Of a stretch of 64,000 bases of DNA, positions 2,602 to 8,462 are shown piece by piece. The stretch covers positions 32,798-96,797 of the forward strand of contig NZ_KK211417.1 in the NCBI RefSeq assembly GCF_000622245.1, read 5' to 3'. Position 1 is the stretch's first letter. Each line of letters starts with the position of its first letter. A program made the translations under genes and the position numbers. Below the pieces are notes generated by a model that saw only the letters and a list, made by a program, of their open reading frames with translations, made no database searches and was not told the origin of the DNA. Source of the stretch: Fusobacterium perfoetens ATCC 29250. Its GTDB lineage: Bacteria > Fusobacteriota > Fusobacteriia > Fusobacteriales > Fusobacteriaceae.

Positions 2602-3942
2602 TTATTTAGCTAATCTTTTATTTAAAGCTTCAGCTTCTTTTTCATATCCTTTTTTACCTAATAATGCAAACATATTTTTCTTATAAGCTTCTACACCTGG
2701 TTGGTCAAATGGATTTACTTCTAATAAATATCCACTAATTCCACAAGCTTTTTCAAAGAAATAGAATAAATATCCTAAACTGAAAGCATCTACTTTAGGC
2801 ATACATACTCTTATATTAGGTACTCCACCATCAACATGAGCTAATTGAGTTCCTAACATAGCTTTTTCATTAACAAAGTTCATTCCTTTTCCTGCTATAT
2901 AGTTAAGTCCATCTAAATCATCTTTATCAAATGGAATTACTACATCTGTTTCTTTTTCTTCTATATCAATAAGAGTTTCGAATAATGTTCTTTGGCCATC
3001 TTGAATATATTGTCCCATAGAATGTAAATCAGTACTTAAATCTACTGATGCTGGGAATAATCCTTTTCCATCTTTTCCTTCTGATTCTCCATATAATTGT
3101 TTCCACCATTCAGCAACATAATGTAATTTAGGTTCATAATTTATTAAAAGTTCTATTGATTTTCCTTTTCTTAATAATAAATTTCTAGTTGCTGCATATT
3201 TATAACAATCATTTTCTTTATAAGGAGCTGTATAATCATTTTGAGCTTCTCTTGCTCCAGCCATTAAATCATCTATATTAATTCCAGCTGCTGCTATTGG
3301 TAGTAATCCAACTGGAGTTAAAACAGAAAATCTTCCTCCAACATTGTCTGGAATTGTGAATGTTTCATATCCCTCTTCTGTAGCTAATTTTTTTAGAGCT
3401 CCTTTTGCTGAATCTGTTGTAGCAAATATTCTTTCTCTAGCTCCCTCTATTCCATATTTTTTCTCTAACATTTCTTTAAAAATTCTAAAAGCAATAGCTG
3501 GTTCTGTTGTTGTTCCTGATTTAGAAATTACATTTACTGAAAAATCTCTATCTCCAATAGCTTCTATTAAATGAGCTAAATAAGTTCCAGAGATGCTATT
3601 TCCAGCAAAATATATTTCTGGATGTCCTTTAGTTACTTTATTATAGAATGTATGAGATAGAAAATCTATAGTTGCTCTTGCTCCTAAATATGAACCTCCA
3701 ATTCCTATAACAACTAAAACTTCTGAATTATTTTTAATCTTTTCAGCAGCTTTTTTTATTCTTTCAAATTCGTCCTTATCATAATCTGTAGGAAGAGTTA
3801 TCCAACCTAAAAAGTCATTTCCTTTTCCTGTTCCTTCCATAAGAACTTTTTCAGCTTCATTAACTTCAGTTTCCATTCCTAAAATTTCTTCTTCAGATAC
3901 AAAACTTGAAACTTTTGATAAATCCAATTTTAGTTTATTCAT
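2602..3942 (-). CDS. pgi: Glucose-6-phosphate isomerase
   Basis: Interconverts glucose 6-phosphate and fructose 6-phosphate in glycolysis. The 446-residue length matches the short bacterial form seen in low-GC bacteria. Recognisable elements are [11 protein letters not shown] near residue 80, the sugar-phosphate site SKSGTTTEP, the [11 protein letters not shown] signature and [13 protein letters not shown] lies nine bases before the ATG. It is followed by the M18 aminopeptidase and lies about 30 bases after the gene for the SLH protein, all on the minus strand. Confidence 0.96.
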
Positions 3943-4477: not shown

Positions 4478-5206
4478 TTATTTTAAAATAAACATCTCTT
4501 TAAAAGCTTTTATCCTATTTCTACTTAAAGGAATTTTTTTTGAAATATTCTCAAGTTTTATTAAATAACTTCCACTAAACCAAGCCTCAAGTTCTCTTAT
4601 TTTATCTACATTCACTAAATAAGCTCTATGACTTTTAAAAAATTTTTTATTTGATAAAACTTCTTCTAACTTAGAAATTTTTTGTTTAGTAGTATAAATT
4701 TTATTTTTTGTATAAACTAGACATTCTTTTTCATCAGCTTCTATATAATAGATATCTTCTAAAGACAAAATAATTATTTTTCCATCTTCTGATACAGCTA
4801 ATTTATTTATTAATTCATTTTTTAAAACCTTATTCTCTTCTTTTTGATTAACTTTTAATAATTCTTCTAAAGTTTTCTTTATTCTTTCTTCTGAATAGGG
4901 CTTTAAAATATAATCAAAAGCTTTGATATCAAAAGCTTCTACTCCATATTCTCTATAAGCAGTAATAAATATTATTTTCATATTAGGATTTAACTTATGA
5001 ATAATTTTTCCTAAATTTATCCCATCAATTCCAGGCATATTAATATCTAAAAATGCTATATCAACCTCATTATTTTCTAAAAATTTAAGAGCATCTATAG
5101 GATTATCAAATTCATTTTCTAAATAAAAATCTTTATAAAGATTTATAAAATATTTTAATTCTTCTCTTGCTGGGTATTCATCTTCTACTATTATATAACT
5201 TAACAT
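4478..5206 (-). CDS. LytTR-family response regulator (LytR/BtsR-like)
   Basis: Cytoplasmic transcription regulator of 242 residues. The receiver domain (1-120) has an acidic pair at 9-10, phospho-acceptor Asp54 in FLDINMPGIDG, and Lys in the LKPYS loop. The C-terminal LytTR domain (about 136-240) carries FFKSHRAYLVNVDKI and the ending IPLSRNR, typical of this beta-type DNA-binding fold. It lies nine bases after the LytS-type kinase gene, its likely partner. LytTR proteins bind direct repeats about 21 bp apart, and just such repeats lie at 6921-6975 before the divergent transporter, the probable target. Confidence 0.93.
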   Translation of the reverse strand: MLSYIIVEDEYPAREELKYFINLYKDFYLENEFDNPIDALKFLENNEVDIAFLDINMPGIDGINLGKIIHKLNPNMKIIFITAYREYGVEAFDIKAFDYILKPYSEERIKKTLEELLKVNQKEENKVLKNELINKLAVSEDGKIIILSLEDIYYIEADEKECLVYTKNKIYTTKQKISKLEEVLSNKKFFKSHRAYLVNVDKIRELEAWFSGSYLIKLENISKKIPLSRNRIKAFKEMFILK

Positions 5207-5215
5207 ACTTTCTCC

Positions 5216-6868
5216 TTATATCTCAAAAATTATAGATGTTCCTTCCTCTAATCTTCTTATATTAAGTCCTCTTCCATAAAGAAGTTTTAATCTTCTATGG
5301 ACATTTCTTAATCCTATACTTTTTTCTTCTTCATTTTCTAAAGAATTTATTACATCTTGAGATATTCCTACACCATTATCTTTTATCTCTATTAATAGAT
5401 GTGTTTCATTTCTTTTATTAATAATAATATCTACTATTCCTCCTTCTCTTTTTGGTAATATTCCATGTTTTATACTATTTTCTACTAAAGGTTGAATAAT
5501 GAGACTTGGAATTTGAAAATCTCCTACACCATCTTGAATTTTATAATTTACTTTTATTTTATTATTAAATCTAGCTTGTTCTATATTAACATAAGCTTTT
5601 ATCTGTTCTAATTCTCTTTCCACAGTCACTAATTTATTAAAATTTTCAAGATTAAATCTTAATATAGTAGATAAATCTATTATAATTTCTCTTGCTTTTT
5701 CAGGGTTTATTCTAATAAAAGAAGTTATAGTATTTAAAGCATTAAACAAAAAATGAGGATTTATTTGAGTTTGTAACATTTTTATATTTGCTTCTCTTGC
5801 CATAGCTTTAAAATTTTCAATTTTTGTAAGTTCTAATTGAGTAGAAATTAATTGAGCTAATCCTATAATAAGAATTTTTTTACTTTCAGTTATTTCACTC
5901 AATTTATCAAAATATATTTTTAAGGTACCTGATACATGTTTTTCTTTATATAATGGAACTATAATATATGATTTTATATTTCCATCAACACATTCAAAGG
6001 TAGTTTTATCTAATTTATTATTGGTAATAAAAATTTTTCCTGTTTTAATAACCTCTTTTGTAGCCTCACTTTTTATTTCAATATGATTTAATCTATATTC
6101 ATCACTATAAGAATATTTACCTATAATAAACTTTTCATTAGTTAAAACTACTGCTTTAGCTTCTAAAGACTCCATTATAATTTTACAAACTTCATCTAAT
6201 GACCCTCCATTTGAAAAATATGGTAAAGTTTTTTCAGCTATTTTAAGTGATAATTTCGCTTGTTTTCCAGCTATAATTTCTTTTTCTTCTATTATACTTT
6301 CTATAATTAATATAACTATTGGAACTCCCAAAGCATTGGCTAGTATCATTGGTATATATATATTATAAACTATTTCTATGGCAAGATTTCTATCCTCTCC
6401 CATTAAAATTATTAAAATCATACTTAAATTTTCTATTAAAAAACCAGCTAAAAAACCAAATAAATATTTATTTTTTTCATTTGTATATTTTGAAAGATAA
6501 GCTACAAAAAATCCACCTAAAATTGTAGATATTGTACAAGGAACAGCTGTAAATTGTCCTGATAATAAGAAATATCTATGTAAACCTGAAATTATTCCTG
6601 ATAAAATTCCCACATAAGGAGAAACTAAAAGTCCTCCTGTTATAACTCCTATATTTCTAGTATTAGCTATTGAACCTTTGTAGTCTATTCCTGAATAAGT
6701 TCCTATAATAGCTAATCCTCCAAAAAATAATGAAAGTAGTATAATATCTTTCACATTATATTCTTCTTTTATTAAAATATTTCTTGAATTTTTCATCCTA
6801 GTAAAGAAAAAAGCTATAATTATTATATGACCTAAATTATTTAAAAGAGCACTAACTAAATTAAACAT
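5216..6868 (-). CDS. LytS/BtsS-type sensor histidine kinase
   Basis: Membrane histidine kinase of 550 residues. Residues 1-195 form the 5TM-5TMR_LYT sensor (RNIGVITGGLL-PYVG, SGLHRYFL), about 215-345 look like a GAF domain, and then come the His_kinase box with His372 in QINPHFLFNALNTI and a HATPase domain (NSIKHGI, DNGVGIS). Arg71, Arg98, Cys111 and Ser114 line up well with residues I recall as implicated in pyruvate binding by E. coli BtsS (Arg72, Arg99, Cys110, Ser113), which supports a pyruvate-type ligand. It is co-transcribed with the LytTR regulator and divergent from a CstA/BtsT-like carrier, the same three parts as the E. coli BtsSR-BtsT system. Ligand assignment is inference. Confidence 0.92.
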   Translation of the reverse strand: MFNLVSALLNNLGHIIIIAFFFTRMKNSRNILIKEEYNVKDIILLSLFFGGLAIIGTYSGIDYKGSIANTRNIGVITGGLLVSPYVGILSGIISGLHRYFLLSGQFTAVPCTISTILGGFFVAYLSKYTNEKNKYLFGFLAGFLIENLSMILIILMGEDRNLAIEIVYNIYIPMILANALGVPIVILIIESIIEEKEIIAGKQAKLSLKIAEKTLPYFSNGGSLDEVCKIIMESLEAKAVVLTNEKFIIGKYSYSDEYRLNHIEIKSEATKEVIKTGKIFITNNKLDKTTFECVDGNIKSYIIVPLYKEKHVSGTLKIYFDKLSEITESKKILIIGLAQLISTQLELTKIENFKAMAREANIKMLQTQINPHFLFNALNTITSFIRINPEKAREIIIDLSTILRFNLENFNKLVTVERELEQIKAYVNIEQARFNNKIKVNYKIQDGVGDFQIPSLIIQPLVENSIKHGILPKREGGIVDIIINKRNETHLLIEIKDNGVGISQDVINSLENEEEKSIGLRNVHRRLKLLYGRGLNIRRLEEGTSIIFEI

Positions 6869-6920
6869 AATATCCTATCACCTCAGAAATATTTTATCAT
6901 ATATTAATAAATATTATAAG

Positions 6921-6975
6921 TACATTTCATACTCAATAAAATACATTTTAAGTACAAAAAAATACATATTAAGTA
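6921..6975. promoter_or_regulatory. Three LytTR-type direct repeats with 21-bp period
   Basis: TACATTTCA (6921), TACATTTTA (6942) and TACATATTA (6963) repeat with exactly 21 bp between starts. The second and third copies match over 13 bases apart from one change (TACATTTTAAGTA and TACATATTAAGTA). Two 9-bp boxes separated by about 12 bp is the known layout for LytTR regulators. They lie between the kinase and transporter genes, upstream of a weak promoter for the transporter that has no good -35 box, as expected for an activated gene. Confidence 0.72.
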
Positions 6976-7049
6976 TTAAAATGCTATTTTTTATTAAAAA
7001 AATAGTACAATTAATATAGAAAAAATATATTTTTTAGGAGGTTTAATAT

Positions 7050-8462
7050 ATGATAAGTTTTGTAGTTTCTGTAATTGCTTTAATTATAGGTTATTTTATT
7101 TATGGTAAGTTTGTTGAAAAAGTTTTTGGTCCAGATTCAGAATCTTTAACACCAGCAAAAAGATTAGAAGATGGTGTTGACTATGTGGAGATGGATATCA
7201 AAAAAACTTTCTTAATTCAATTTTTAAATATTGCAGGTACTGGTCCTATATTTGGAGCTGTGGCTGGAGCTATGTGGGGACCAGCAGCATTTATATGGAT
7301 AGTTTTTGGATGTATTTTTGCTGGAGCTGTTCATGATTATTTAATTGGTATGATGTCCTTAAGAAGAGATGGAGCTAGTGTTGCTGAATTAGTTGGAGAA
7401 AACTTAGGTAATGGAGCAAAACAATTAATGAGAGTATTCTCTGTTGTTTTATTAGTTCTTGTTGGAGTTGTTTTTGTAACAAGTCCTGCTGCTATATTAA
7501 ATGATTTAACAGGAATAGATAAATTAATTCTAATAGGAATTATAATTATTTATTATCTAATCGCTACTGTATTACCAATAGATAAAGTTATCGGTAAAAT
7601 TTATCCTATATTTGGTGTAGCTTTACTTATAATGGCTGTTGGTATTGGATTTGGTATTATAATTCAAGGATATGATATTCCTGAACTAGCTTTAAGAAAT
7701 TATCATCCAAAAGGACAATCAGTATTCCCTTATTTATGTATTTCAATAGCTTGTGGAGCAATTTCAGGATTCCATGCTACTCAATCTCCTATGATGGCTA
7801 GATGCTTAGGAAATGAAAATCAAGGAAGAAAAGTATTCTATGGAGCTATGATTGCTGAAGGTATTGTGGCCTTAATTTGGGCTGCTGCTGCCATGTCATT
7901 CTTTGGTGGAACAGAAGGTTTAGGAGTTGCTTTATCTAAAGGTGGAGCTGCTGTTGTTGTTAATAAAATTTCAGGTACTGTTTTAGGAAAAGTTGGAGGA
8001 GCTTTAGCTTTATTAGGAGTTGTTGCTTGTCCTATAACTTCAGGAGATACAGCTTTTAGAAGTGCTAGATTAACAATAGCTGATGCTATAAATTATAAAC
8101 AAGGTCCAATTATAAATAGATTTGTTGTTGCTATTCCTTTATTTGTAATAGGTGTTGCTCTATGTTTTATTGATTTCAATATTTTATGGAGATATTTTAG
8201 TTGGTCTAACCAAACTTTAGCAACAATAGCTTTATGGGCTGGAGCTGCCTATCTTGCTAAAAAAGGTAAATTCTTCTGGATGGCGGCTATACCAGCTACA
8301 TTTATGACTGTAGTTGTTACTTCTTATATATTAATAGCTCCAGAAGGATTTAGAATGTCTGAATCTATTGGAAACACTGTTGGACTAATAGTAGCTGCTG
8401 TTTCTATAATTGCTTTTATCAAAAAATTCTTACCTATTTATAAAGAAGCAGTTAATAAATAA
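7050..8462 (+). CDS. CstA/BtsT-family transporter, short form
   Basis: Inner-membrane carrier of the carbon starvation (CstA) family with about 13 hydrophobic helices. Family signatures are TGPIFGAVAGAMWGP, FAGAVHDYLIGMMSLRRDGASVAELVG, ACGAISGFHATQSP and CPITSGDTAFRSARL. E. coli CstA and BtsT (about 700 residues) carry peptides and pyruvate. This protein has 470 residues and lacks the extra C-terminal helices and domain of the long form. TTTAGGAGG precedes the ATG. With the divergent LytS/LytR pair and the repeats between them, the best inference is an inducible pyruvate (or peptide) importer. A terminator follows at 8483-8513. Confidence 0.92.
   Translation: MISFVVSVIALIIGYFIYGKFVEKVFGPDSESLTPAKRLEDGVDYVEMDIKKTFLIQFLNIAGTGPIFGAVAGAMWGPAAFIWIVFGCIFAGAVHDYLIGMMSLRRDGASVAELVGENLGNGAKQLMRVFSVVLLVLVGVVFVTSPAAILNDLTGIDKLILIGIIIIYYLIATVLPIDKVIGKIYPIFGVALLIMAVGIGFGIIIQGYDIPELALRNYHPKGQSVFPYLCISIACGAISGFHATQSPMMARCLGNENQGRKVFYGAMIAEGIVALIWAAAAMSFFGGTEGLGVALSKGGAAVVVNKISGTVLGKVGGALALLGVVACPITSGDTAFRSARLTIADAINYKQGPIINRFVVAIPLFVIGVALCFIDFNILWRYFSWSNQTLATIALWAGAAYLAKKGKFFWMAAIPATFMTVVVTSYILIAPEGFRMSESIGNTVGLIVAAVSIIAFIKKFLPIYKEAVNK

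Follow-up and report, generated by a model that had tools for sequence, protein, structure and literature searches.

A promoter-locked array of candidate LytR boxes probably connects a PyrSR-like sensory system with a CstA-family transporter gene in Fusobacterium perfoetens

Introduction

A short intergenic region of Fusobacterium perfoetens ATCC 29250 carries three similar words in a row, which raises the question of whether they constitute an operator and, if so, for which regulator, for which gene, and with how many functional sites. The region occupies positions 6869-7049 of the 64,000-nucleotide stretch of DNA that was analysed (hereafter, the window), with a lytS-lytR operon running leftward from it, a CstA-family gene running rightward, and all three words located in between.

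Results

The flanking genes are as the initial annotation described them, since the expected Pfam domains are found in a LytS/LytR pair beside a CstA-family gene. The minus-strand gene at 4478-5206 encodes a 242-aa LytR-type response regulator (PF00072 plus PF04397, the LytTR DNA-binding domain) that is closest to PyrR/YpdB, and the minus-strand gene at 5216-6868 encodes a 550-aa LytS-type sensor histidine kinase (PF07694, PF06580 and HATPase_c) that is closest to PyrS/YpdA. On the plus strand, the gene at 7050-8462 encodes a 470-aa CstA-family transporter (PF02554; 215 bits against a cut-off of 27), which its likeness to BtsT and CstA marks as a probable pyruvate symporter, and a ribosome-binding site, AGGAGG, lies ahead of it at 7036-7041 on the same strand. 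A second, longer CstA-family gene (577-aa frame) is found elsewhere in the genome (G000 C2:118462-119982; L003, L184).

The kinase is 41% identical to E. coli PyrS (YpdA) and 32% identical to BtsS, and the regulator is 38% identical to PyrR (YpdB) and 30% identical to BtsR, which places both proteins nearer to PyrS/PyrR than to BtsS/BtsR among the systems compared. Against the BtsR equivalog NF008677 (NCBIfam), the regulator scores 158.7 bits, below the curated cut-off of 246. The architecture of PyrS/PyrR, namely a sensor with 5TMR-LYT, GAF-like and His_kinase regions together with a receiver-LytTR regulator, is likewise present, with the GAF_2 and GAF_3 matches falling below the Pfam cut-off. 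The target of PyrS/PyrR is the MFS transporter YhjX, whereas the boxed neighbor in the window belongs to the CstA family, and for this reason we refer to the system as PyrSR-like rather than as a PyrSR-YhjX system.

Within the intergenic region, TACAT words start at 6921, 6942 and 6963 on the plus strand, giving the period of exactly 21 bp that had originally been noted, and each extends to a full 9-mer. The resulting candidate LytR boxes are P3, the distal one (TACATTTCA, 6921-6929, family-matrix score 11.7), P2 in the middle (TACATTTTA, 6942-6950, score 12.1), and the promoter-proximal P1 (TACATATTA, 6963-6971), whose score of 5.8 is the lowest of the three and about half that of either of the others. 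The strong pair is accordingly the distal one (P3 and P2), with the weakest box closest to the promoter. An exact TACAT-N16-TACAT-N16-TACAT series occurs once in the window and is unique to 6921-6975 in a scan of the whole 2.1-Mb genome, and no series of this kind with up to one mismatch arose in 100 dinucleotide shuffles of the window. The triple 9-mer form, TRCATWTYA, also occurs once in the window and in none of 100 shuffles. When the pair of 9-mers is sought genome-wide at one mismatch or fewer, it is encountered at two places, both within 6869-7049, and the lack of any other such pair suggests that LytR probably has a single strong target. As is typical of LytTR-type operators, the array is built of 9-bp direct repeats spaced by about two turns of the helix, and its position relative to the predicted -10 puts it immediately ahead of the -35 region of the gene to be activated, which is equally typical. 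Two further candidates were set aside: a fourth box at 6900 (TATAT, one mismatch to TACAT) scored -8.4 with the family matrix, and a wider LytR regulon in the genome was not evident from pair matches with two to three mismatches (75 + 81, compared with 99 + 100 for a reversed-pattern control).

The matrix behind these scores was trained solely on Fusobacteriaceae promoters. Applied to 228 bp of E. coli yhjX DNA, which had no part in the training, it gives its two highest scores among all positions, 16.1 and 11.2, to the YpdB sites; these sites are given as the direct repeat GGCATTTCAT in PMC4847170. Based upon this ranking, and upon the fact that the kinase and the regulator are both nearest to PyrS/PyrR, it is very probable that LytR, as a regulator of the PyrR kind, recognizes the window boxes as its sites.

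It is also evident that the boxes are retained wherever the kinase is retained. LytS was sought in 61 genomes (its own plus 60 relatives), and a protein of about 50% identity or more was found in 28 of them, all from the same family, with the cstA gene traced in each. The gene order varies considerably among these genomes, as 12 are divergent like the window, eight have a tandem lytS-lytR-cstA arrangement, and eight have cstA elsewhere, including three in which it is convergent beside lytR. Whatever the gene order, a phased pair that exceeds the 97.5th percentile of the locus's own shuffles is located upstream of cstA in 28/28 of these LytS-bearing fusobacterial genomes, a count to be read in light of the relatedness of the loci, which are not independent. 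Loss of the repeats from relatives that keep all three genes, which the initial annotation had named in advance as the outcome that would count against it, is therefore not seen, and its attribution of the boxes to the adjacent LytS/LytR pair, as LytTR-type sites working with the CstA gene, gains support. The training pairs of the matrix came from these very loci, a weakness lessened by genus-wise hold-out and by sets outside the training: with the genus of each locus removed from training, the pair is recovered in 27/28 loci at p <= 0.02. Among eight controls, comprising the cstA-like genes of four genomes without this LytS plus four paralogues, one has a pair and none has a third box.

Of 80 cstA loci sampled, 22 from outside the fusobacteria have a LytR homologue directly upstream, and 14 of these 22 have a pair (12/19 once the near-duplicates L079, L092 and L122 are removed) and nine have a third box, as judged from 100 shuffles. 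By comparison, a pair is found in 2/53 non-adjacent control loci, and a third box in 2/53. An earlier pair count of 22/25, made with 40 shuffles, included the fusobacterial loci L072, L073 and L075, which the count of 14/22 leaves out (L073 and L075 are indicated as the same loci as L054 and L056). The later upstream sets begin exactly at the ATG, and L071 and L118, with less than 150 bp of upstream DNA, are absent from all upstream counts.

These distributions bear directly upon the objection that the repeats are sites of some other regulator or a chance product of AT-rich DNA. The region is indeed AT-rich, and loose two-box patterns are common at three mismatches (156 matches versus 199 for the reversed control). 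Against this, the boxes track the presence of LytS and not gene order, they match the YpdB sites, and they are absent from shuffles, while the genome encodes just one further LytTR protein, on a different contig beside a different 21-bp repeat. We consider such an origin highly improbable.

That other LytTR locus has features of its own. The protein consists of 226 aa with no receiver match and is encoded beside a 532-aa protein without a Pfam match (G000 contig C3), divergently from a subtilase autotransporter (S8 + PATR); the three genes are at L185 1158-1838, 1840-3438 and 3605-5101. In their shared promoter region (L034 1503-1534), GTATAAAATTT is present twice at exactly 21 bp, and this repeat is likely a second LytTR operator of the genome.

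The position of the array relative to the cstA promoter is similarly informative. P1 starts 43 bp ahead of the predicted -10 hexamer, TACAAT, which lies at 7006-7011 on the plus strand; a good -35 at the usual spacing from that hexamer is lacking in the cstA promoter sequence. In 23 of the 28 fusobacterial loci, a hexamer with at least 5/6 matches to a -10 is separated by 41-43 or 62-64 bp from the best pair's downstream box, compared with at most 11 loci for any of 35 alternative placements of the hexamer; the boxes used here were picked without promoter information. A scheme that scored the boxes together with weak -10 hexamers chose a poor TATTTT for L038/L039 and gave way to a promoter-blind histogram and to counts demanding 5/6 matches. 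The nearest box of the fusobacterial array starts 42-43 bp ahead of the -10. In 14 loci, the window included, the best pair is the distal one at 63-64 bp from the -10, and the slot at about 42 bp holds a weaker box. The functional -10 distance in these loci fits only if P1 is a site, and the fact that relatives keep their sites in register with the promoter argues that the row of boxes is real.

A further role for the array is suggested by its other flank, where a possible lytSR -10, TATAAT, abuts P3 on the minus strand (6913-6918). Judged by its sequence, this weak element could conceivably permit lytSR autoregulation. LytR bound to P3 might then block or tune the lytS promoter in a negative feedback, which would explain why a third box exists, and a TAAGT adjoining P3 is invariant in four relatives within the genus. 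However, the element has no -35, the promoter scan did not return this lytS promoter, and third boxes are also found at loci with other arrangements of cstA and lytS than the divergent one (e.g. L058, L059, L062 and L155). We regard this role as unlikely.

At 20-22 bp outside of the best pair, 21/28 fusobacterial loci carry a third box whose score exceeds the 95th percentile of an equal number of off-phase positions. It persists with genus-wise hold-out in 20/28 loci and 10/13 genera, and with one locus per genus in 8/13. Third-box scores above 2 bits are obtained in 17/28 loci, compared with 4/168 off-phase values. A motif-free test, for which the upstream segments overran some genes by a few bases, places the best repeated triple at a lag of 21 in 8/12 divergent fusobacterial loci, and in 12/25 lytSR-adjacent loci (three of them fusobacterial) versus 9/53 non-adjacent ones. 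Consequently, the initial view of the third box as exceptional was too strong: it recurs in phase in most fusobacterial loci as well as in the nine other lytSR-adjacent loci mentioned above, and LytTR regulators with three direct repeats, RcoM and CoxC, are already on record in PMC11347149.

The opposite view, that only two boxes function as in E. coli yhjX and that the remaining one is a degenerated or accidental copy without any role, is the less probable one. Seven of the 28 loci have no third box over the threshold, which indicates that it is not obligatory and that two boxes suffice in some genomes. YpdB operates through two sites (PMC4847170), the two boxes of B. subtilis pftAB are each described as essential in PMC5626966, and P1 of the window has only half the score of its neighbors. 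Arguing for a role of the third box are its enrichment over off-phase positions, the fit of the -10 distance only with P1 as a site, and the observation that P1 exceeds the off-phase 95th percentile in 13 of the 14 loci whose best pair is P2 and P3.

Some relatives may carry longer arrays. In L156, L161 and L163, which belong to one genus (G009, G022 and G032), the words upstream of cstA drift to GTCGTTTTA or ATCGTTTTA, and by eye these loci may hold four phased slots, with partial matrix support. A lytSR-adjacent cstA of [Clostridium] citroniae is preceded by four CCGTTTGTGCA-like repeats with a spacing of about 21 bp (L145, ~3345-3417), and these are perhaps a four-slot array with an altered word.

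With regard to the signal, BtsS is reported to bind pyruvate via Arg72, Arg99, Cys110 and Ser113 (PMC10653868), and all four residues are kept in the window LytS, where R71, R98, C111 and S114 align with them. In an alignment of 53 LytS rows, neither the first Arg nor the Cys varies and 52 rows keep the second Arg, whereas at the Ser position 27 rows have Ser, 24 have Ala and two have Thr; given the change to Ala, the affinity or specificity for pyruvate may differ among relatives. The transporter shares only 29% identity with E. coli BtsT across 346 aa and, at 470 versus 716 aa, is much shorter. Pyruvate is our best guess for both the signal of LytS and the substrate of the CstA-family transporter. 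Pyruvate had also been put forward initially as the probable nutrient, and the homology to PyrS/BtsS together with the four pocket residues makes this a well-founded suggestion.

Discussion

Taken together, the three 9-mers would constitute the operator of the adjacent PyrS/PyrR-like (YpdA/YpdB-like) LytS/LytR, through which the divergent CstA-family gene is activated, a reading to which we assign a probability of roughly 0.78. Presumably, LytS senses extracellular pyruvate and then phosphorylates LytR, molecules of which would fill successive boxes at intervals of two helical turns, all on the same face of the DNA. Loading would begin at the strong distal pair, P3 and P2, and the weak P1, which ends just upstream of the would-be -35, would be filled by cooperativity, putting an activator beside RNA polymerase at a promoter whose -10 is fair and which has no good -35. 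Cooperative or graded control through the third box is plausible. YpdB is described in PMC4847170 as binding its two sites sequentially and cooperatively ('AB-BA'), and with an additional, weaker slot the response would become steeper or more graded.

Such a model offers a concrete operator for nutrient sensing in Fusobacterium and suggests that three phased slots, the weak one on the polymerase side, can serve LytTR activators. Furthermore, it would carry the YpdB box word into a different phylum and a different transporter family, which should be useful for predicting pyruvate regulons. Among the literature on LytTR proteins with "three direct repeats", only PMC11347149 was found, and among the papers listed for LytTR with Fusobacterium, YpdB, or CstA/Clostridia, in a collection with few subscription journals, none describes this promoter in its title or the start of its abstract.

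Among known systems, E. coli PyrS/PyrR with yhjX shares both the box word (GGCATTTCAT versus TRCATTTYA) and the 21-bp period, and its upstream region (L187) has a TATGGT at 43 bp from where the proximal YpdB site starts. It differs in its target, an MFS protein with two described sites, whereas the window has an adjacent CstA-family gene and three boxes. The distal yhjX site is also preceded, at a distance of exactly 21 bp, by a degenerate CGTCATTCA whose score of 0.7 is the fourth best of the region. E. coli BtsS/BtsR with btsT is similar in pairing a LytS/LytTR system with a CstA-family target, in that case a pyruvate-sensing system and a pyruvate symporter, but the proteins share only 32%, 30% and 29% identity with those of the window, the box word is different, and the genes are scattered in E. 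coli. Upstream of btsT (NC_000913, L070), the BtsR-like words GCCGCTCA, ACCGCTTA and ACCACTCA are located at -184, -164 and -143 from the start codon, in phase at 20 and 21 bp; in this one genome, they are the only words with at least 7/8 matches in 377 bp, and the extra in-phase word has a chance probability of about 0.012, calculated post hoc. It is tempting to speculate that pyruvate LytS/LytTR promoters share an ancestral and overlooked three-slot operator locked to the -10, with slots about 43, 64 and 85 bp upstream, a best pair that is often distal, and a weak polymerase-side slot that acts as a cooperative, dose-setting gate, in which case even btsT, for which two BtsR sites have been described, may carry an additional one (GCCGCTCA-20-ACCGCTTA-21-ACCACTCA). 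We offer this generalization tentatively and rate it as less likely than not.

The pyruvate-induced LytS/LytT system of B. subtilis also serves a single target, pftAB, and in PMC5626966 the LytT site is said to resemble that of YpdB; the system differs from the window in its transporter, PftAB rather than CstA, and in having two boxes. RcoM and CoxC, as presented in PMC11347149, are one-component LytTR regulators of CO whose operators have three direct repeats at LytTR spacing, all three of which are reported as necessary for efficient binding by CoxC. Three phased repeats are likewise found in the window, where the regulator is of the receiver-LytTR type rather than a one-component gas sensor; RcoM and CoxC further differ in their heme or MHYT sensors, in their words, and in that CoxC is a repressor. 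Lastly, the lytS-lytR-cstA clusters of Clostridia and relatives encode the same three families, many with phased boxes, in tandem order as opposed to the divergent order of the window. In light of these parallels, the locus is mostly explained by a kind of switch that is already known, and what is new here is a PyrSR-like system apparently wired to a CstA transporter via a promoter-locked array of two or three boxes.
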